Below, piece by piece: positions 49,845 to 64,000 of a stretch of DNA of 64,000 nt. The notes under the pieces are model-generated. The model had not been told where the DNA came from and ran no database searches. It worked only from the letters and a program-made list of their open reading frames with translations. Both the position numbers and the translations under genes were made by a program. How positions within the stretch are numbered: position 1 is the stretch's first letter; each line of letters starts with the position of its first letter. The stretch is from Flectonema sp. DT1601 (taxonomy: Eukaryota > Euglenozoa > Diplonemea > Diplonemida > Diplonemidae), in NCBI GenBank assembly GCA_964019425.1, contig OZ025816.1, forward strand, positions 989,001 to 1,053,000, written 5' to 3'.

Positions 49845-51201
49845 ATGGATCAAGTGCCAATGAACATCGATCAGCCAGGGACATTAGTCGCGGCTTCAAG
49901 TTCATCTGGCTTCAGGTTACCTTCTAGCTTAGAAGAAGCTTGGAAAGGCGTTTTCGGCGGAGAAGAGCTGAAACGTGGAACTTACAAAATGGATGATGTT
50001 AGGATGAACCTTGGGGGATGGTGTGCGCAGCAGCAGGCCGAAAGTATTATCAATGATATGCTAATGGCTTTTTTAGGTATACCAAGGGAATCGATCCAAG
50101 GCATCGCGTTGAGGCCGAAGGAGGTGATGTTGTCTCACCTGAGGAACAGGAATGTCACTAGGTTTGATGGGATGTTGAACGCGTGCGGTGTAACCGAGGG
50201 GTTGCCAGTGTCACGTTCTAAGTTTCACCAGGTCCTCGACGGCGCCAGCCAAGCAGTAACACACACCGTCCAGAGACAGAGTGCTTTGGAACAAGCCACG
50301 TCCCAGGCGCTGAATTCTGCAGGGCAGCGGCAGGCCGTTTTAGAAAACGAGACCGTCAACGTGATAAACCGCCAGCAGGCACTTGAACAAGGACATGCAA
50401 GAATAGCCAACGAACTATCTCGACAGGGGCAGACGACGAACAGCCTGGCAGGGATGACTGACTCTGCGATCAGGGGGCAGCAGTCAGAGATGGCGAAGAT
50501 GCAGGGGGCCATCACCGCAAACCGCGAGTTGGCAATAGCCCAAGATAAGAAGATCGACAAGATTCTGGGGTGTTTGAAGGACGTCTCAAAGAGACCAATT
50601 ACAACTACTCAACCAGTAACGACGTTGGGGCAAATCGATGCGTCAGATGAACGGGTGGGTAGGCTAGCGGCGATAGCGAAGGGAACTGGTTCGGAAGATG
50701 TACCGACCACGTTGCAGGCTCCTCAGGCACATGCGAAGGTTGTCTTTACGACGACGAGAGTCGAAGACAAGAAGGATGTGCTGCAGTGGAGAGAAGCGAT
50801 CGAGGAGGACGCGACAGGTTTCATCAGGGACCTGCGCTTTAAGTACACTAGTGGGTGTACCACTGCAAAGCCCGGTGACCGTGTCCTTCGCATACCTTGA
50901 AATGCTTGTTGATTGGATAAGGGTGGCAGGGCAGGTAGATTCATGGGAAGAAATGCCTGAGATGGTAAGTCTGGGTAATAGGGGGTTGTCCTTGTTACGC
51001 GCACAGCAAGGTTACGTTGTGCAAGGGGCCAGACTGAGTGATGTTTTGACGGAGATGGAGGCGAAGGAGAGCGATAATATGGATAAATCCATTATCAAAG
51101 CATCCAAGAAAAAGTCTTGGACTCCTAAGCAAAGACCCTCCATCAAGCCTTTTTTAGGTCCAAGGGGCCGTGGTGCCCAGGTGCAACCTCAAAGAATTTG
51201 A
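49845..51201 (+). pseudogene. gag-like ORF of the degenerate element, one frame change
   Basis: ATG 49845 opens 351 codons in one frame, with a helical Gln-rich centre (QALEQGHARIANELSRQGQ). At about 50885 homology continues in the next frame to 51201 (YLEMLVDWIRVAGQVDSWEE...VSLGNRGLSLL), which aligns with the gag-like protein of the intact element (MEFIPGWDKNENAVSLGNNLL). The tail is basic (KKKSWTPKQRPSIKPFLGPR), as expected for a nucleic-acid-binding gag. A programmed frameshift cannot be excluded, but other breaks downstream favour decay. Confidence 0.55.
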
Positions 51202-51331
51202 ATGTCGGTGAGAAAGAAGAAGTTTACCTGGGCCCGGCCAGGCATGACTTCGTTAAGCAGAACTACCGGAGGCGCAACCGCCAAAATGCGGCAAGACTAG
51301 TTAGTCAAGGGAAAAGGAATCATAGAGCATC

Positions 51332-52071
51332 TTGCAACGCAAACCCACAAGGGGAACACACTCGGAAGACGATGTTACCATAAAGGCAGCCGAAAAGCGT
51401 GTACGCGCAATAGTAAGAAGGATGTGGGCGACATCAACAATCGATCAAAGAAAGCGGTTATGGTCGAGGTTTGCAAAATGGACCACCGACAAGAACCTCC
51501 CGATGGATGCGAATTCTGCAGTCTTATTCGTAACCGCAACAGGGGCGAAGTTACAGGGTCTTCTGAACTACGCGAAGGCATTGTCGGGGATTATGAAGCA
51601 CATTGGAATGGAGAACCAACCACTCAGAAGCTTTCAGATGGCCTTAAGGCAGATGGCGCTGCAATACCCGAATCGCAGGCAACTCCGATCCCGAGGGAAG
51701 TCCTGGAGGAGTGGAGCCAGACACAGGAACTGAAGGTTACAACCGCAGCGATGATCGCCTGGAAGACGATGTCACGCTGGGGGGAAGTCGCGGCGCTATC
51801 TTCGGCCAACTTCATACAGAGCGACCCTTTGACAGTAATAATAGACTGGAACCAGATACCAAAGGGAAAGAGGGAAAATCCATTCACGGCATCAAGGTTC
51901 GCGGTGATCACCGGAAGATGGACGGAGGAGATAAACCTGGCTATCAGAAGGTTGGGATTCTTCGATCGTCTGACAAAAGTCGACACTCCAGAGACAACGC
52001 TAAGATACGCAGGGTCGACTAGGGGGCTGGCTCTTTCACTACGTACAGCCCGAGTAACACAACATCTGTAG
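51332..52071 (+). pseudogene. tyrosine recombinase remnant lacking the HxxR box
   Basis: The N-terminal core-binding part (RRMWATSTIDQRKRLWSRFAKW...AVLFVTATGAKLQGLLNYAKAL) is in one frame and the catalytic part in another from ~51650. The first Arg (TMSRWGE) and the beta-hairpin Lys (IPKGKRENPF) are present. Sequence then jumps from FFDRLTKVDT to PETTLRYAGSTRG, so the ~55 residues that hold H-x-x-R and the second His in the intact relative are missing, while the nucleophile Tyr region remains. It cannot be an active recombinase. Confidence 0.7.
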
Positions 52072-52178
52072 CTCCAAGGACTGCCTGGAGACTTATGCAG
52101 AATTTCACTCGGAAGTCGAAGACCACATGACTCCCTACAACTGACGAGGGGAAGGCGGCACCTCTTCATGCCAAGGAA

Positions 52179-52450
52179 GTGGGGACCATCGATGTTGAAG
52201 AAGTGAAGAAGATGATGACTGAAGGTACCCGCAGGAGGTTCGGAGAGGTCTGGGACCAAACCTTTAATCCGAAGGGACAAGGGACCATTGGGTACAAGAA
52301 GGGCCATAAGGAGTCTAGTCTGCAGTCGGAACATGCGCGGCGACTGGTGGAGGCAGGGGTTGCAACCCTAGCCGACGGCCCCGGGATACTCGAGTCGATA
52401 CCCTTCACTATCCTCGAAGAACGGCAGGCTGGGATTCGACAACGGTTGTT
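52179..52450 (+). pseudogene. 5' fragment of the RT ORF
   Basis: FGEVWDQTFNP and SIPFTILEERQAGIRQRLL match the region before the RT fingers of the intact element (FNETWDLTFKN; VPFTVFEERETGDRQRF). Similarity ends near 52445, where unrelated sequence with tRNA-like parts begins. No palm or RNase H domain follows. Confidence 0.6.
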
Positions 52451-54104: not shown

Positions 54105-54222
54105 AACCAACGATTCTAAAGCTACAGTTTCTGTACTTTATTGGTACAGTCTCAACATCCGAGCTTGCTTGGAATATTTAGCTGACCTCTTAGGAAGAAT
54201 TTTCTTCCTTTGGGGTTTTTTT
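54105..54222 (+). ncRNA. spliced-leader RNA gene, copy 1
   Basis: The SL exon is 39 nt, 54105-54143, beginning AACCAACGATT and ending CAGTTTCTGTACTTTATTG, then a GT donor. The ~75-nt intron part holds a perfect inverted repeat GGAAGAA-TT-TTCTTCC enclosing an Sm-like AATTTTC, followed by GGGG and a T7 run (54216-54222) as probable terminator. The exon's 3' half equals, from memory, that of kinetoplastid and diplonemid SLs. SL RNA donates its exon to all trans-spliced mRNAs, matching the AG acceptors before the protein genes here. Confidence 0.88.
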
Positions 54223-55424: not shown

Positions 55425-55542
55425 AACCAACGATTCTAAAGCTACAGTTTCTGTACTTTATTGGTACAGTCTCAACATCCGAGCTTGCTTGGAATATTTA
55501 GCTGACCTCTTAGGAAGAATTTTCTTCCTTTGGGGTTTTTTT
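55425..55542 (+). ncRNA. spliced-leader RNA gene, copy 4
   Basis: Exon 55425-55463, donor at 55464, T7 run at 55536-55542. Intact; it is the last complete SL gene before the retrotransposon. Confidence 0.88.
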
Positions 55543-55865: not shown

Positions 55866-55891
55866 AACCAACGATTCTAAAGCTAAAGTTT
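55866..55891 (+). pseudogene. first 26 nt of an SL exon, cut by the retrotransposon
   Basis: SL exon nt 1-26, with one change (GCTAAAGTTT for GCTACAGTTT), directly followed by the element's TTGCAAATT end. The other 13 nt are at 60604-60616. Confidence 0.9.
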
Positions 55892-56263
55892 TTGCAAATT
55901 TATTTCAGTAATTGCGCAGCCATCCAAAATGCACCAGAATTTAGGCAGAAAACTTTCTTACTAGAAAAGTAAGAAAGGTTTTTTTGCCCAAGGAAAGGAT
56001 GCTGGATTTCTGCGCATAAGCAGATTTAGGAAAGATAGATAAGGTATAATAGGATGAGAAAGGACTCCTTTTAGTATGCAATTAGTTTTTGAAATCTAGG
56101 TGTTCGGCTGCTAATTCAGTTAGCAGTAAAAAAATCATGGAGTTTTGGTGCTAAGTTGTCTTTTTGTTATAGTTTAAATAACTTGGATTCTAATAAACTT
56201 ATTCTTTTACTTTTGCAGTTATTTGCCACCTTGTCACATCTCACCACTAAAAGTAAAAGAAAA
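55892..56263 (+). repeat. A1 terminal repeat
   Basis: 372 nt starting TTGCAAATTTATTTCAG, repeated at 60037-60408 (A2). It holds an internal acceptor-like tract ending TTTTACTTTTGCAG at 56218, which could be the trans-splice site for the element mRNA. Confidence 0.93.
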
Positions 56264-56398
56264 CAGCAACAGCTCCAGCAGCATTTTCAAAATACACCAC
56301 ATCAGCAGACCTCGCAGGGGCCACAGCCTGTACCACCACCAGTGCTTCCTGCAGCGCCTCAGCAAGGTACTCAGCAAGGTGGAGAAGAAGATTCACAG

Positions 56399-56887
56399 AT
56401 GCAGTCTGCTGTATTAGACACGAATAGTGTTTTAGACTGGATTCCAATCATGGAACAACGGCTGACAGAGATCTTGCTGATTAAACTGGAATCAAAATTC
56501 GTAGGAAGAGTTCCCCCTGGACCAGGGGTTGAGTTGCTAGAGAATTATTACAATAACTTAGAAAGATTCATATTAGCTATGGAATTCATCCCAGGATGGG
56601 ACAAGAACGAGAATGCAGTCTCATTAGGAAATAACTTGTTGAGAGATTTGAAGATTCAGAATATGTATTGCATGAATGGGACAAAGAGGTCGGATCTAAT
56701 CAATCAGCTTAAAACAGAGGCTAATGATCCGTTACAGAAGGCTAATGCAGTACTTATGGCAAAGAAGAAAGCAATTACCAGAAACCTTACAAGCAGTGCA
56801 AGTACAAAAGGAAGAAAAGGAGGATATGTTCCATTCCGTAGGACGCTCCAGCGAGGACAGGGAAACGGAAGGGCTGGGGGACAATGA
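56399..56887 (+). CDS. gag-like protein of the YR retrotransposon
   Basis: ATG 56399 is the first ATG after the acceptor-like site at 56218 and opens 162 codons to a TGA at 56885-56887. The frame is open further up (from 56156) without an ATG, through a Gln/Pro-rich part. The protein is helical with a basic tail (KGRKGGYVPFRRTLQRGQGNGRAGGQ) that could bind RNA; no zinc knuckle is seen. WDKNENAVSLGNNLL aligns with the gag-like protein of the degenerate element. The TGA overlaps an ATG (ATGA at 56884), and the recombinase frame continues in the same frame after the stop. Confidence 0.6.
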   Translation: MQSAVLDTNSVLDWIPIMEQRLTEILLIKLESKFVGRVPPGPGVELLENYYNNLERFILAMEFIPGWDKNENAVSLGNNLLRDLKIQNMYCMNGTKRSDLINQLKTEANDPLQKANAVLMAKKKAITRNLTSSASTKGRKGGYVPFRRTLQRGQGNGRAGGQ

Positions 56888-58120
56888 CTGGCGACGTCCA
56901 GCCCTACACTGCCAGTGAGGAGAGCAAGAGCCTCGGGAAACTTGCTACAAATATTGAAGGTAAAGAAGCAGGTAGAAATAGAAAGAGGAACACTGAAAAT
57001 TCAGAGAAATCTCAAAGTAATTGGTCTAATGCGCAGGTATACCCCGGGAAAGCCTGGGATGGCAATTTCAAAAAGTATCTCATCTCTAAGTCCAGTCAGG
57101 GAAAATTCAAAGAATCTCAAAAATCTGGAAAAGACAGACTTAGTAGAAAAAGTGGAGGAAGAACCCAGAAGGGACTCTTCAGGGGTGATCCAAAATGTCC
57201 TTCTAGACATAGTGGAGCCCTCTGCCCTGAGCAGAAATCAGAAGGAAGACTCTGTGGGAGTGCTCCAAGCAACAGAAAGACTTGGAGAGACAATGGAGAA
57301 GATGTGGGCAAAGGAGACCACTTCCAGCAGGAAGCAGCTCTGGAAGAGACTGATAAATTGGGCAGGCAGCCAGAACCTACAAGTCAATGGGGACACAGCT
57401 GTTCTCTTCGTGATGGCAACGGGAGCAGCGGAATCGGCGCTTCTTACATATTCAAAGCACCTGTCAGCCCTGATGGGGAAGATGGGAATGGACAGCAAGC
57501 CACTTTTAACCTTAGCAGCAGCAATCAGAGCAGCAGGAGGGAACATTCCAACTCAGCAAGCAATCCCCATGAAGAGGGAGCACTTAGTAGGACGGGCGAT
57601 GAAACAATGTACGAGGACGAGAGTCGCGATGCTCATCAGCTGGAAGGCAGCCGCACGATGGGGAGAGACAGCAGGACTAGCAAGGGAGCAGTTTATACTG
57701 ATTTCAAAGGAAGAAATAATAATAGATTGGGCAACCACACCAAAGGGCCGCAGAGGCAATCCGTTCTACCCGAGCAGATGGGCCGTGTTGGTCGGGGATC
57801 TCGTGGAGGAAATAGCGGATGGACTGACGGAAATAGAAGAATTCGAAACCTTACATCCGTGGGACACATCACGACTAGTAAAAGAGTGGAAGGAAGACAG
57901 TATTATGAAAACCTATACAGCCCACTCGATAAAAAGAGGCGCAATAAGCACCTTACTAGAGCTCCTCGCGGGCGGATGCGACCTGAAGGAAGAGCTGATA
58001 AGCCGCCTTGCAAAGCACTCGACGACGTCGGCGATCTCAAATACAACAATAAGATACGGAGGGAACGCAATCGCCACCGCTCGGGCCCTGAAGACATCCT
58101 TAGTGACGAAGTTCCTATAA
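56888..58120 (+). CDS. tyrosine recombinase of the YR retrotransposon
   Basis: Frame open for ~410 codons directly after the gag TGA and in the same frame, with no ATG before the conserved part, so expression probably needs readthrough or reinitiation. Numbering from 56915: core-binding domain ~120-210 (MEKMWAKETTSSRKQLWKRL...AVLFVMATGAAESALLTYSK); catalytic residues R248 (ARWGE), K277 (TTPKGRRGNPF), H337 with K340/R341 (TAHSIKRGAIS), H368 (AKHSTTSAIS) and nucleophile Y381 (TTIRYGG). The full R-K-H-R-H-Y set is present, so this recombinase could be active. It would integrate and excise a circular DNA, unlike a DDE integrase. Confidence 0.82.
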   Translation: MATSSPTLPVRRARASGNLLQILKVKKQVEIERGTLKIQRNLKVIGLMRRYTPGKPGMAISKSISSLSPVRENSKNLKNLEKTDLVEKVEEEPRRDSSGVIQNVLLDIVEPSALSRNQKEDSVGVLQATERLGETMEKMWAKETTSSRKQLWKRLINWAGSQNLQVNGDTAVLFVMATGAAESALLTYSKHLSALMGKMGMDSKPLLTLAAAIRAAGGNIPTQQAIPMKREHLVGRAMKQCTRTRVAMLISWKAAARWGETAGLAREQFILISKEEIIIDWATTPKGRRGNPFYPSRWAVLVGDLVEEIADGLTEIEEFETLHPWDTSRLVKEWKEDSIMKTYTAHSIKRGAISTLLELLAGGCDLKEELISRLAKHSTTSAISNTTIRYGGNAIATARALKTSLVTKFL

Positions 58121-58454
58121 AACTGATAAGAAAAATGGGGGCTCAGTTCACACACAGGGCTAAGTCAACAAGGATACCGAGTACGAGCTACGAGAAGTCG
58201 GCCCCATTACACGCAGCGATCGTACAGCCGATGGATATTCAAATAATCAAAGACCGGATGCTTCCGAGCGTCCTAGAGCGTTTCAACGAGACTTGGGACT
58301 TGACATTTAAAAATGCAGGAAATCTGAAAAGTTTAGGTAAAAATAGAGAGAAGAATCCCCCTCCCAGACTCGGACCGGCGCTCCCTAACGACCCTTCGAG
58401 ACACTCATCCCGTTCTCCCTCCAACCATTCCACCACTCCCCACCTGAAAGATAA

Positions 58455-59924
58455 AAAACCCAAAATTCTTTTCAAAAAACAAAGCTTTCCTGTCTTCACT
58501 CTAAGGAGTTAGTAAGGTGTAAAATTGCAGTACCTTTTAAGAAGGAACTTTCTAAGTCCAGGAACGTGCCTTTCACAGTTTTCGAGGAAAGGGAGACAGG
58601 AGATAGGCAGCGCTTTATCTTGTGGACTAAGGAAGAGAACGAGAAGATTTACGAGACTGGATATGAACCGTTTGTACCTTTACAACATATCTCGAAGTAC
58701 TTAGGTGCAGTGCACTCAGAAGTAGCTTCTTTAAGAGACTTTAAAACAGGTTTTTATCAGATACTTATTCCAGAGGCTTCGAGACCTCTTTTTACCTTCG
58801 AGGATGCCTCGGGGGACTGGTTCGCGCTAACCAGATTACCGATGGGGCACGTTTGTGCGCCCGAAATTATGAATACGATTACTGCAGTAGTTTCTGGCGA
58901 CCCCTTGTTTGTTAGGCCAGAATTTGCAGAAAAGCAAGTGAAAATTGATTGGTGGATAGATAATATAAGGATTTATGGGGATAAAGAAAGGGTCCGAGAG
59001 GCCACGAATAGAATGGACGAGTTTGCCAGGCTTTGCAACGCAACCTGGAAGGTACAAGATACTGTTAATTTAGGCACTGAATACGAATTTTTAGGTGCAT
59101 TTTTCTCACATCCTACTAGGGAAGTTTCTTTAGGTGAAAAGATTACTAAAAGAATAAAAGCTTGCAATTTGAACTGCATAACTGCAGCAGCAGCAGAATC
59201 TCTTTCGGGAAGGCTTTTGCATGCTAGTGCCATATCGGGGGTCCCTCCTGGTAGGTTCTGGTTTGCAATGAAGTTTCTGCGAAGACTTACTAATAAGCTC
59301 AATCGAGGAGCAATTCTTGTTTCAGAAAAGATTTCTTTACCAAACTCAGTGAAAGCTGAGCTGCGCGCGTGGATGCACCAAGTCCAGAAGGGACGTACTA
59401 TTCCACCAGATGAGAAGGTCGGTAAAACTGCAGAGGTCTTTATCGATGCCTCGCTCAAGGGCTGGGGAGGTGTGATTGTTTGGGACTCTGCAGAGATGGA
59501 AATCTTAGGTGGCCAATGGCCTTTAGGCGAAGAACGCCATATTAACATTCTCGAGGCAGATGCCTTAGGGAAGACTTTGAGCGCTATTACTAGAGCGGAC
59601 CATTTGTCCATCTGGGTCGATAACACCACGGTCTGCGGATCGTTCAGAAAGAAGATGTGTGCTCGCTCACACTCTCTTAATTCATTTATTTTAGTTTCAA
59701 TAGAAAAATTACTTCGTTTAAAATGTTCTTTCACACTTCAATGGGTGAGCACAAAGTATAACCCCGCAGACATCCCCTCGAGGGAGCCTATCACCTCGGA
59801 AACGAGGGCGAAGGTCGAACTTGCGCTCGGGGGCCTCTTCAACTCGCGACGGGGTGGCGGAGCCGGTGTCACGCCGAATCGAAACGGGCACCAGCCACTA
59901 CCCCAACGCAATAAACTGTCTTAG
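58455..59924 (+). CDS. reverse transcriptase / RNase H of the YR retrotransposon
   Basis: Frame open from ~58455 after a TAA, without a clear ATG. RT blocks: SLRDFKTGFYQILIPE (first catalytic Asp), ALTRLPMGHVCAPEI, and KIDWWIDNIRIYG, where the usual xxDD is WIDN. RNase H follows with all four acidic residues: VFIDASLKGWGGV, INILEADAL, IWVDNTTVCG and KYNPADIPSRE. The sequence expected before the fingers (MDIQIIKDRMLPSVLERFNETWDLTF) is at ~58228-58310 in a different frame, so a frame change lies between ~58320 and 58510. The last ~20 codons run into B1. Family assignment is firm; activity is uncertain because of WIDN and the frame change. Confidence 0.82.
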   Translation, partial: KTQNSFQKTKLSCLHSKELVRCKIAVPFKKELSKSRNVPFTVFEERETGDRQRFILWTKEENEKIYETGYEPFVPLQHISKYLGAVHSEVASLRDFKTGFYQILIPEASRPLFTFEDASGDWFALTRLPMGHVCAPEIMNTITAVVSGDPLFVRPEFAEKQVKIDWWIDNIRIYGDKERVREATNRMDEFARLCNATWKVQDTVNLGTEYEFLGAFFSHPTREVSLGEKITKRIKACNLNCITAAAAESLSGRLLHASAISGVPPGRFWFAMKFLRRLTNKLNRGAILVSEKISLPNSVKAELRAWMHQVQKGRTIPPDEKVGKTAEVFIDASLKGWGGVIVWDSAEMEILGGQWPLGEERHINILEADALGKTLSAITRADHLSIWVDNTTVCGSFRKKMCARSHSLNSFILVSIEKLLRLKCSFTLQWVSTKYNPADIPSREPITSETRAKVELALGGLFNSRRGGGAGVTPNRNGHQPLPQRNKLS

Positions 59925-60036
59925 ACAGCTTCTCTGTGTTTGCTAGTTTGATCCATTAGTTTGTTTTATTAGTTTAATTAGTTTCATCTATACATTTCAT
60001 TCGTCAGGTGCATGATATGGAAGGCAAGCGCAATTA
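59862..60036 (+). repeat. B1 repeat
   Basis: 175 nt from GCCGGTGTCACGCC to GGCAAGCGCAATTA, repeated as B2 at 60429-60603. The RT stop codon TAG lies inside it. It abuts A2, and the junction GCAAT-T-ATTGC is a perfect inverted repeat. Confidence 0.92.
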
Positions 60037-60408
60037 TTGCAAATTTATTTCAGTAATTGCGCAGCCATCTAAAATGCACCAGAATTTAGGCAGAAAACTT
60101 TCTTACTAGAAAAGTAAGAAAGGTTTTTTTGCCCAAGGAAAGGATGCTGGATTTCTGCGCATAAGCAGATTTAGGAAAGATAGATAAGGTATAATAGGAT
60201 GAGAAAGGACTCCTTTTAGTATGCAATTAGTTTTTGAAATCTAGGTGTTCGGCTGCTAATTCAGTTAGCAGTAAAAAAGTCATGGAGTTTTGGTGCTAAG
60301 TTGTCTTTTTGTTATAGTTTAAATAACTTGGATTCTAATAAACTTATTCTTTTACTTTTGCAGTTATTTGCCACTTTGTCACATCTCACCACTAAAAGTA
60401 AAAGAAAA
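60037..60408 (+). repeat. A2 terminal repeat
   Basis: 372-nt copy of A1, directly after B1. Differences seen: CATCTAAAA for CATCCAAAA, AAGTCATGG for AAATCATGG, and GCCACTTTG for GCCACCTTG. Confidence 0.93.
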
Positions 60409-60428
60409 ACCCACCCTCCATCCCTCCG

Positions 60429-60603
60429 GCCGGTGTCACGCCGAATCGAAACGGGCACCAGCCACTACCCTAACGCAATCAACTGTCTTAGACAGCTGCT
60501 CTGTGTTTGCCAGTTTGATCCATTAGTTTGTTTTATTAGTTTAATTAGTTTCATCTATACATTTCATTCGTCAGGTGCATGATATGGAAGGCAAGCGCAA
60601 TTA
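60429..60603 (+). repeat. B2 terminal repeat (right end of the element)
   Basis: 175-nt copy of B1, ending CAATTA at 60603, where SL exon nt 27 (CTGTAC...) resumes at once. A 20-nt C-rich spacer (60409-60428) separates it from A2. Confidence 0.92.
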
Positions 60604-60695
60604 CTGTACTTTATTGGTACAGTCTCAACATCCGAGCTTGCTTGGAATATTTAGCTGACCTCTTAGGAAGAATTTTCTTCCTTTGGGGTTTTTTT
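60604..60695 (+). pseudogene. 3' part of the SL RNA gene cut by the retrotransposon
   Basis: SL exon nt 27-39 (60604-60616), donor GT, Sm-like hairpin and T7 run (60689-60695). It lacks its 5' exon part and its upstream region. Confidence 0.88.
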
Positions 60696-60835
60696 ATTGT
60701 CCGTGGACTTGTGTTTGCCAAGTAGAAGAAAATGTACAAAGATGCTTCCTCCATTTTTACGTAAAAAATTTTAATATATATTTTTTTTTTTTGGCTTTCT
60801 TCCCCGAAAGACGTAATTTTCGCCGCTCCCAGTAT

Positions 60836-60927
60836 CTGTACTTTATTGGTACAGTCTCAACATCCGAGCTTGCTTGGAATATTTAGCTGACCTCTTAGGA
60901 AGAATTTTCTTCCTTTGGGGTTTTTTT
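60836..60927 (+). pseudogene. SL RNA gene lacking exon nt 1-26
   Basis: Begins at exon nt 27, preceded by CGCTCCCAGTAT instead of the exon 5' part. Intron, hairpin and T7 run (60921-60927) are intact. Confidence 0.85.
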
Positions 60928-61335: not shown

Positions 61336-64000
61336 TCCCGCAAACCCGCAAACCCGCAAACCCGCAAACCCGCAAACCCGCAAACCCGCAAACCCGCAAA
61401 CCCGCAAACCCGCAAACCCGCAAACCCGCAAACCCGCAAACCCGCAAACCCGCAAACCCGCAAACCCGCAAACCCGCAAACCCGCAAACCCGCAAACCCG
61501 CAAACCCGCAAACCCGCAAACCCGCAAACCCGCAAACCCGCAAACCCGCAAACCCGCAAACCCGCAAACCCGCAAACCCGCAAACCCGCAAACCCGCAAA
61601 CCCGCAAACCCGCAAACCCGCAAACCCGCAAACCCGCAAACCCGCAAACCCGCAAACCCGCAAACCCGCAAACCCGCAAACCCGCAAACCCGCAAACCCG
61701 CAAACCCGCAAACCCGCAAACCCGCAAACCCGCAAACCCGCAAACCCGCAAACCCGCAAACCCGCAAACCCGCAAACCCGCAAACCCGCAAACCCGCAAA
61801 CCCGCAAACCCGCAAACCCGCAAACCCGCAAACCCGCAAACCCGCAAACCCGCAAACCCGCAAACCCGCAAACCCGCAAACCCGCAAACCCGCAAACCCG
61901 CAAACCCGCAAACCCGCAAACCCCGCAAACCCGCAAACCCGCAAACCCGCAAACCCGCAAACCCGCAAACCCGCAAACCGCAAACCCGCAAACCCGCAAA
62001 CCCGCAAACCCGCAAACCCGCAAACCCGCAAACCCGCAAACCCGCAAACCCGCAAACCCGCAAACCCGCAAACCCGCAAACCCGCAAACCCGCAAACCCG
62101 CAAACCCGCAAACCCGCAAACCCGCAAACCCGCAAACCCGCAAACCCGCAAACCCGCAAACCCGCAAACCCGCAAACCCGCAAACCCGCAAACCCGCAAA
62201 CCCGCAAACCCGCAAACCCGCAAACCCGCAAACCCGCAAACCCGCAAACCCGCAAACCCGCAAACCCGCAAACCCGCAAACCCGCAAACCCGCAAACCCG
62301 CAAACCCGCAAACCCGCAAACCCGCAAACCCGCAAACCCGCAAACCCGCAAACCCGCAAACCCGCAAACCCGCAAACCGCAAACCCGCAAACCCGCAAAC
62401 CCGCAAACCCGCAAACCCGCAAACCCGCAAACCCGCAAACCCGCAAACCCGCAAACCCGCAAACCCGCAAACCCGCAAACCCGCAAACCCGCAAACCCGC
62501 AAACCCGCAAACCCGCAAACCCGCAAACCCGCAAACCCGCAAACCCGCAAACCCGCAAACCCGCAAACCCGCAAACCCGCAAACCCGCAAACCCGCAAAC
62601 CCGCAAACCCGCAAACCCGCAAACCCGCAAACCCGCAAACCCGCAAACCCGCAAACCCGCAAACCCGCAAACCCGCAAACCCGCAAACCCGCAAACCCGC
62701 AAACCCGCAAACCCGCAAACCCGCAAACCCGCAAACCCGCAAACCCGCAAACCCGCAAACCCGCAAACCCGCAAACCCGCAAACCCGCAAACCCGCAAAC
62801 CCGCAAACCCGCAAACCCGCAAACCCGCAAACCCGCAAACCCGCAAACCCGCAAACCCGCAAACCGCAAACCCGCAAACCCGCAAACCCGCAAACCCGCA
62901 AACCCGCAAACCCGCAAACCCGCAAACCCGCAAACCCGCAAACCCGCAAACCCGCAAACCCGCAAACCCGCAAACCCGCAAACCCGCAAACCCGCAAACC
63001 CGCAAACCCGCAAACCCGCAAACCCGCAAACCGCAAACCCGCAAACCCGCAAACCCGCAAAACCCGCAAACCCGCAAACCCGCAAACCCGCAAACCCGCA
63101 AACCCGCAAACCCGCAAACCCGCAAACCCGCAAACCCGCAAACCCGCAAACCCGCAAACCCGCAAACCCGCAAACCCGCAAACCCGCAAACCCGCAAACC
63201 CGCAAACCCGCAAACCCGCAAACCCGCAAACCCGCAAACCCGCAAACCCGCAAACCCGCAAACCCGCAAACCCGCAAACCCGCAAACCGCAAACCCGCAA
63301 ACCCGCAAACCGCAAACCCGCAAACCCGCAAACCCGCAAACCCGCAAACCCGCAAACCCGCAAACCCGCAAACCCGCAAACCCGCAAACCCGCAAACCCG
63401 CAAACCCGCAAACCCGCAAACCCGCAAACCCGCAAACCCGCAAACCCGCAAACCCGCAAACCCGCAAACCCGCAAACCCGCAAACCCGCAAACCCGCAAA
63501 CCCGCAAACCCGCAAACCCGCAAACCCGCAAACCCGCAAACCCGCAAACCCGCAAACCCGCAAACCCGCAAACCCGCAAACCCGCAAACCCGCAAACCCG
63601 CAAACCCGCAAACCGCAAACCCGCAAACCCGCAAACCCGCAAACCCGCAAACCCGCAAACCCGCAAACCCGCAAACCCGCAAACCCGCAAACCCGCAAAC
63701 CCGCAAACCCGCAAACCCGCAAACCCGCAAACCCGCAAACCCGCAAACCCGCAAACCCGCAAACCCCGCAAACCCGCAAACCCGCAAACCCGCAAACCCG
63801 CAAACCCGCAAACCCGCAAACCCGCAAACCCGCAAACCCGCAAACCCGCAAACCCGCAACCCGCAAACCCGCAAACCCCGCAAACCCGCAAACCCGCAAA
63901 CCCGCAAACCCGCAAACCCGCAAACCCGCAAACCCGCAAACCCGCAAACCCGCAAACCCGCAAACCCGCAAACCCGCAAACACCGCAAACCCGCAAACCC
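61336..64000. repeat. 8-bp satellite (CCCGCAAA)n to the window end
   Basis: About 2.66 kb of the octamer CCCGCAAA (minus strand TTTGCGGG), over 300 units. It is interrupted only by single-base slips such as CCCCGCAAA (61921, 63765, 63877) and ACCGCAAA (near 61977, 62374, 62861, 63030, 63287, 63308, 63612), plus one AAAACCC at 63060. It reaches the last base of the window. The G-run of three fits a telomere-type repeat, but the C-rich strand reads left to right. Confidence 0.95.

Follow-up and report, generated by a model that had tools for sequence, protein, structure and literature searches.

Most of the familiar retrotransposons with a fixed target are elements of the LINE (long interspersed nuclear element) type that are guided by an endonuclease; those of the CRE clade use a restriction-like endonuclease and insert between nucleotides (nt) 11 and 12 of the spliced-leader (SL) exon. 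Here we describe a retrotransposon that encodes a tyrosine recombinase (YR) and interrupts an SL exon of the diplonemid Flectonema sp. DT1601, in a stretch of 64,000 nt (contig OZ025816.1, positions 989,001 to 1,053,000; hereafter the window). CRE-clade elements without long terminal repeats (non-LTR; SLACS, CRE1, CZAR) and NeSL occupy a fixed position in SL RNA genes (PMC12278014, PMC3636483). They share with our element insertion in the SL exon, but are of LINE type, have no YR and duplicate their target, whereas our element encodes a YR and has an exact joint of 26+13 nt.

TATE (telomere-associated transposable element), a YR retrotransposon of trypanosomatids, has gag-like, YR and reverse transcriptase/RNase H (RT/RH) genes in that order, with overlapping frames and split repeats (PMC6681497, PMC12278014, PMC2696322), and inserts precisely at one position of the telomeric hexamer repeat (PMC2696322). 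A flanking TT duplication is reported in PMC2696322, while PMC12278014 states that there is no target duplication; TATE-like open reading frames (ORFs) are mentioned for Diplonema papillatum (PMC10161547). The likeness to our element – in gene order, overlapping frames, split repeats and one fixed position in a repeated target – is one of architecture and targeting and not of direct sequence comparison. It ends at the target itself: the telomeric repeat is replaced by the SL exon, in which all counted external ends of the window element's family (family 1) lie, and the reported TT duplication has no counterpart. VIPER/SIRE of trypanosomatids resembles it in gene order, in the repeat arrangement A1...B1-A2-B2, in the lack of target duplication and in having short A2-B2 derivatives (PMC12278014, PMC6681497); these sources, in the parts seen, give no fixed target site for VIPER, unlike the SL-exon element. 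Ngaro, PAT and DIRS-1 are also YR retrotransposons, and Ngaro has the structure A1-[ORFs]-B1A2B2 as well as solo AB repeats, but its gene order is gag, RT/RH, YR, and the part of PMC8547959 seen names no SL target. In a literature search (open-licence papers; titles and the starts of abstracts among the matches listed) none described SL exons as a site occupied by a YR retrotransposon: the only class for which we could find this refuge described is a quite different one, the non-LTR elements.

Insertion at one position of the spliced-leader exon

The exon in question is 39 nt long, of the kind found in diplonemids and kinetoplastids, and the window element splits one copy of it between nt 26 and nt 27. 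The two halves (26 and 13 nt) add up to 39, with nothing duplicated or lost; relative to the intact exon, the left half carries A for C at SL nt 21 (C21A). The empty site is provided by the adjoining unit of the SL array: four units spaced by 440 bp lie upstream, with further intact exons at 54105, 54545 and 54985, and one unit lies downstream (61250). SL half-words are expected by chance 0.01 times in the window. An original prediction, made from the window alone, had placed the ends between nt 26 and 27 without duplication or loss and had taken the intact units 440 bp away as the empty site; its coordinates agree exactly with ours (it did not mention C21A), and all four upstream units were seen. 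An Rfam scan of the window at gathering scores gave zero RNA families.

To determine where other copies lie, words from the two ends of the element were searched in the assembly (89.5 Mb, 92 contigs), a count that covers copies with ends near-identical to the words; more diverged ends would escape it. The left-end word occurs 80 times: 51 occurrences are joined to SL nt 26 (49 exactly, two with one mismatch in the SL part), 29 are internal B1/A2 joints (28 following the exact B word, one following a one-base variant seen in L048), and none is elsewhere. Of 77 exact occurrences of the right-end word, 28 are internal and 49 adjoin SL nt 27; a further SL joint with a single mismatch brings the latter to 50. 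The joint is of the type AATTA-CTGTACTTTATTG; direct reading of the junctions in 60 retrieved loci gave the same result at 35 left and 42 right external ends, some of them scored more than once where loci overlap. In the junction search proposed with the original prediction, as run on the assembly, all 51 external left ends and all 50 external right ends thus fall at SL 26/27; the outcome that it had named as contrary, most copies being at unrelated sites, was not found, and none of these ends lies elsewhere. Left ends pair with a right end in 44 of the 51 cases (seven are unpaired), giving 23 long copies of 3,190–5,271 bp, 15 of them 5,148 bp, and 21 short A-B forms of 354, 475, 525 and 564–565 bp that resemble SIRE or solo AB repeats (PMC6681497, PMC8547959). 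Every copy joined to SL nt 26 has the orientation of the SL gene. Against these 51 interrupted exons stand 718 intact 22-nt SL words, dispersed ones included.

The recombinase is identified by its fold and its conserved residues, since searches with the single sequence gave no Pfam match to a YR and no match in PDB. In an alignment of 17 YR sequences R248, K277 and H337-S-I-K-R-G are invariant, and Y381 is nearly so. An AlphaFold model (mean pLDDT, the predicted local distance difference test, 75.7; pTM, the predicted template modelling score, 0.58) has 30 structural matches in PDB at E up to 0.001, all of them of Cre type (the variant Tre included) or XerA. Together, fold and residues support a Cre-like tyrosine recombinase, and with the exclusive joints they bear out the earlier proposal that a recombinase-type retrotransposon homes to the SL exon.

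For the RT, a profile of 28 sequences has 12 sequence matches in PDB at E up to 0.1, the best being an 'Enzymatic polyprotein' (8r0s, 6e-13), followed by Ty3 and retroviral RTs. At E 0.01 an RNase H model matches 12 of the 28 members and an RT model two; the window protein alone stays under the cut-off. Motif C reads W-I-D-N (D-N at window RT residues 132–133), not Y-x-D-D, and D-N is found in at least 90% of the 28 sequences. Protein relatives with a named organism come from Diplonema papillatum (41–49% identity; one is labelled TcC31.12), and the ENA protein P0111 is 98% identical to the window RT, so a close relative of the host, or another assembly of it, has already been sequenced.

The order along the element is A1, gag-like ORF, YR, RT/RNase H, B1, A2, B2. 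RT and RNase H, a tyrosine recombinase, split repeats and the absence of target duplication are features of a YR (DIRS-order) retrotransposon; the order gag-like, YR, RT/RH with overlapping YR and RT frames (the gag-like ORF being recognised by position only) is that of VIPER/TATE, and by gene order and split repeats the element is a VIPER/TATE-type YR retrotransposon. Taken with the junction counts, the data show that insertion is precise, conservative and confined to a single site, by an element encoding a Cre-like recombinase. That this VIPER/TATE-type element has an integration specificity for position 26/27 of the 39-nt SL exon is thus very probable.

A second family and SL sequence outside SL genes

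A second SL family (67% RT identity) has a copy in the SL array of C33; its right end, too, is joined to SL nt 27, and the SL intron comes next. The right-end word of this family occurs 23 times: 12 occurrences are at SL nt 27 (12 of the 16 external ends), seven are internal and four are others. Two of the internal ones were read as B/A joints (C33:46458, C22:112082), and the other five are placed there by a second B end 454–458 bp further on; a further joint to SL, with a variant end, lies at C24:955042. Within three mismatches the left end has 17 matches, of which 13 are preceded by the SL stretch CTACAGTTT (eight exact, five changed in the element part only) and four by another flank. Seven copies have SL on both sides, with lengths of 246, 392, 401, 411, 458, 1,890 and 4,998 bp; the 411-bp copy has variant ends, and six SL-joined left ends lack an exact SL right partner.

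Besides the flank on C33, the right flanks at ten SL joints of this family or its variant were read (C24:960918 was left out). The SL intron (GTACAG) follows SL nt 39 in none of the ten. What follows resembles messenger RNA (mRNA), a leader and then an ATG: in eight of nine flanks searched (C24:955k was left out) an ATG lies 11–72 nt past the SL, its frame open to the end of the piece (15–36 codons), while C22:116k showed none. Four of the eight share the start MAGKKAMRPQDRRAAERR and therefore probably belong to another multicopy retroelement. On C12 the 49 nt past the SL correspond, with one change, to the A repeat of family 2 just downstream of a CAG (the sequence past the CAG of the family-2 repeat is seen joined to SL in L084). 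This suggests that family-2 RNA is trans-spliced at that CAG and that the SL-bearing loci are DNA copies of trans-spliced RNAs. Isolated SL words also occur far from arrays (C1–C18, among the first places listed), perhaps as further such copies.

Because these non-array loci, in the part read, share only the exon with SL genes, the exon sequence and not the array is the likely target. The same loci bear on an alternative that we consider unlikely, namely that what guides the element is the chromatin of the array or RNA (the SL RNA or its complementary DNA), and not the DNA of the SL exon. In principle, trans-splicing of an interrupted SL RNA and its copying back into DNA could occur, and the ten joints of the second SL family and its variant that lie in SL without a following intron are of the kind this would leave. 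However, in the part read these loci have only the exon in common with SL genes; no two of the seven inserts with SL on both sides have the same length (246–4,998 bp); and a similar core is kept where the second SL family sits outside SL, such as GAGTTT/CTG on C15 (a slash marks the joint), as would be expected if DNA is recognised. It is likely, if less firmly so than the specificity itself, that the recombinase reads the SL exon as an attB-like site, any SL-bearing DNA serving as a home – SL genes as well as DNA copies of trans-spliced mRNAs, including other retroelements, dispersed across the genome – and that at least two lineages (67% RT identity) hold this niche in one genome, by a recombinase-based route independent of that of the CRE and NeSL endonuclease elements.

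Independence of insertions and the proposed route

A further alternative is a single insertion in one SL gene, spread by unequal crossing-over and gene conversion with no continuing specificity. Flanks were compared at 30 of the 51 left-end loci, and pairwise at 17 loci. Tandem amplification is likely to have occurred: there are 12 distinct 400-bp flanks among the 30, identical lengths recur (15 copies of 5,148 bp; ten of 475 bp, on C20), and the exon and intron start common to SL units could seed gene conversion. Nevertheless, the 30 left flanks form eight types at 98% identity and two spacer classes at 60%, and likeness between spacers of the two classes is only 25–37%, yet A1 reaches 100% identity (rounded) between them. 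The element thus recurs in nearly identical form beside unrelated SL spacers, and several insertions were therefore independent. The second SL family, moreover, has the same joint, also at SL outside SL genes. A single tandem-amplified insertion as the sole cause was rejected on these grounds and appears quite improbable. Most insertions look recent: of 27 measurable copies (two of 29 have no second B in the locus), 20 show no difference between B1 and B2 across 172 nt, and the largest number of differences, four, is that of the window copy. An assembly artefact that joins element ends to SL arrays, which are (like repeats) hard to assemble, is scarcely credible and was rejected from the assembly alone, because the nucleotide-exact joint recurs on ten contigs (left) and nine (right), in eight flank types and two unrelated spacer classes among the 30 loci compared, and at non-array loci.

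The cycle of the element, as we infer it, would run as follows. Its RNA would be made from the SL gene promoter, as suggested by the shared orientation of SL-joined copies, and reverse transcribed; the split repeats would allow a double-stranded circle with a B/A joint; and the encoded Cre-like YR would recombine this joint with the SL exon, conservatively and without target duplication. The site would be a safe home, since SL genes are multicopy and the loss of some units is tolerable. Several points weigh against specific integration by such a route. The circle, transcript and recombination steps are deductions from sequence. Copy number has certainly grown through array expansion or gene conversion, and the 51 copies do not stand for as many insertion events. 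Four external right ends of the second SL family are not at SL (C15, C25:11.9k, C26 and C80; the flank at C25:11.9k is partly A-repeat-like). Box II of the recombinase reads H-S-I-K-R, with K where the H+3 arginine is usual. Finally, exchange by a YR usually depends on an overlap of identical sequence, and the family-1 circle joint and the target share no base at the crossover (A/T vs T/C), so the length of the overlap cannot be read from this joint. In the second SL family circle joint and target share CTGT.

On the specific-integration reading, a Cre-like recombinase appears to guide a retrotransposon to a single nucleotide within an essential gene for a small RNA, and SL exons, as is suggested, attract unrelated parasites repeatedly. 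The SL-bearing mRNA-like loci serve as an experiment of nature: they narrow what is recognised down to the exon, a rule that can be tested with a 39-bp duplex. The genome also houses relatives with different targets, namely dispersed sites and an 8-bp satellite, which form a natural series in which a change of target choice by the YR can be mapped.

Relatives with other targets and features of the window

The possibility that all relatives are SL-specific was rejected: besides the four non-SL right ends of the second SL family, families 2 and 3 (63–68% RT identity) lie at varied sites, and family 4 (about 50%) lies in the satellite (CCCGCAAA)n, where circle joint and target share CCC (two copies read, L070 and L071). 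The counting word for family 4 was too specific, with four places: two are followed by satellite, one is internal in L071, and C70 was left out of the reading. We read 21 non-SL right flanks, 17 of families 2 and 3 (two being the same repeat context on C66) and four of the second SL family; C is the first letter in 20 of them, all but L074, and 16 start with CT. Sites read on both sides are GAGTTT/CTGACC (C15), CATTTT/CCTTAC (C26:141k) and AAAATC/CTCCCT (C13, L068), compared with CAGTTT/CTGTAC in the SL; pairing is uncertain for GCCTTC/CTATAC (C26, L066), where an inverted B fragment forms the right flank. From these few sites we propose that the recognised site may be a short core, TTY/CY, with outer SL contacts.

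The inverted repeat TACAG-TTT-CTGTA, earlier likened to a recombinase site, is real, and the family-1 circle joint (GCAAT-T-ATTGC) has the same centre. As an argument for a recombinase site it is only suggestive, because the repeat joints of relatives and the non-SL sites read have no inverted repeat; as a general rule the palindrome was rejected, and it is kept as a hint.

Family-2 copies on C66 (L060–L063) and C65 (L064) have no A1 visible in the part read and are bracketed by the same repeats on both sides (1.1 kb, 98% on C66). A tRNA suspected in the A2 repeat of family 2 was not confirmed by ARAGORN.

Table 1. Features of the SL-exon element and its insertion site. Data are positions in the window, on the strand given.
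Feature	Position	Strand	Remarks
Intact 39-nt SL exon (empty site)	55425..55463	+	in adjoining 440-bp SL unit
SL exon nt 1–26 (C21A)	55866..55891	+	left flank of insertion; 51 such junctions genome-wide
YR retrotransposon, 4,712 bp	55892..60603	+	commonest length of long family copies 5,148 bp
Split direct repeat A1	55892..56263	+	369/372 identical to A2 (99.2%)
Gag-like ORF	56156..56887	+	assigned only from its position and the gene order; no match in Pfam
Polypyrimidine tract and CAG in A1	56202..56218	+	candidate trans-splice acceptor, from sequence and analogy with the family-2 repeat
Upstream part of RT/RNase H frame	56884..58512	+	overlaps YR frame; cut off by a frameshift here
Tyrosine recombinase ORF, 401 amino acids	56915..58120	+	R248, K277, H337-S-I-K-R341, Y381
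Reverse transcriptase/RNase H	58566..59924	+	
Split direct repeat B1	59862..60036	+	acceptor-like motif CAG/GTGC, CAG at 60005–60007
Split direct repeat A2	60037..60408	+	B1/A2 joint (60036/60037) is the joint of the presumed circle
Split direct repeat B2	60429..60603	+	171/175 identical to B1 (97.7%)
SL exon nt 27–39	60604..60616	+	right flank, then SL intron (GTACAG...); 50 such junctions genome-wide

RT frame lengths and RT family identities were obtained for 93 of 501 candidates. The frame has 1,027 amino acids in 24 of 29 family-1 copies (99–100% identity) and 489 (window), 706, 556, 522 and 692 in the other five; being frameshifted and shorter than the commonest length, the window copy is defective. 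A polypyrimidine-CAG/GTGC motif lies 24–29 nt ahead of the B end in five related families (in the window and in L060, L067, L068 and L069), and may couple trans-splicing and polyadenylation.

Elsewhere in the window, a 5'-truncated SL unit (60830–60854) lies 232 bp downstream of the interrupted exon. A long array of the same (CCCGCAAA)n repeat that houses the family-4 relatives (L070, L071) occupies 61340–64000, at the contig end. Just upstream of the SL array are remnants of another YR-type element (49845–52400): two ORFs (51332–51733 and 51424–52071) have 37–39% identity to parts of the YR, and are preceded by an ORF at 49845–50900.

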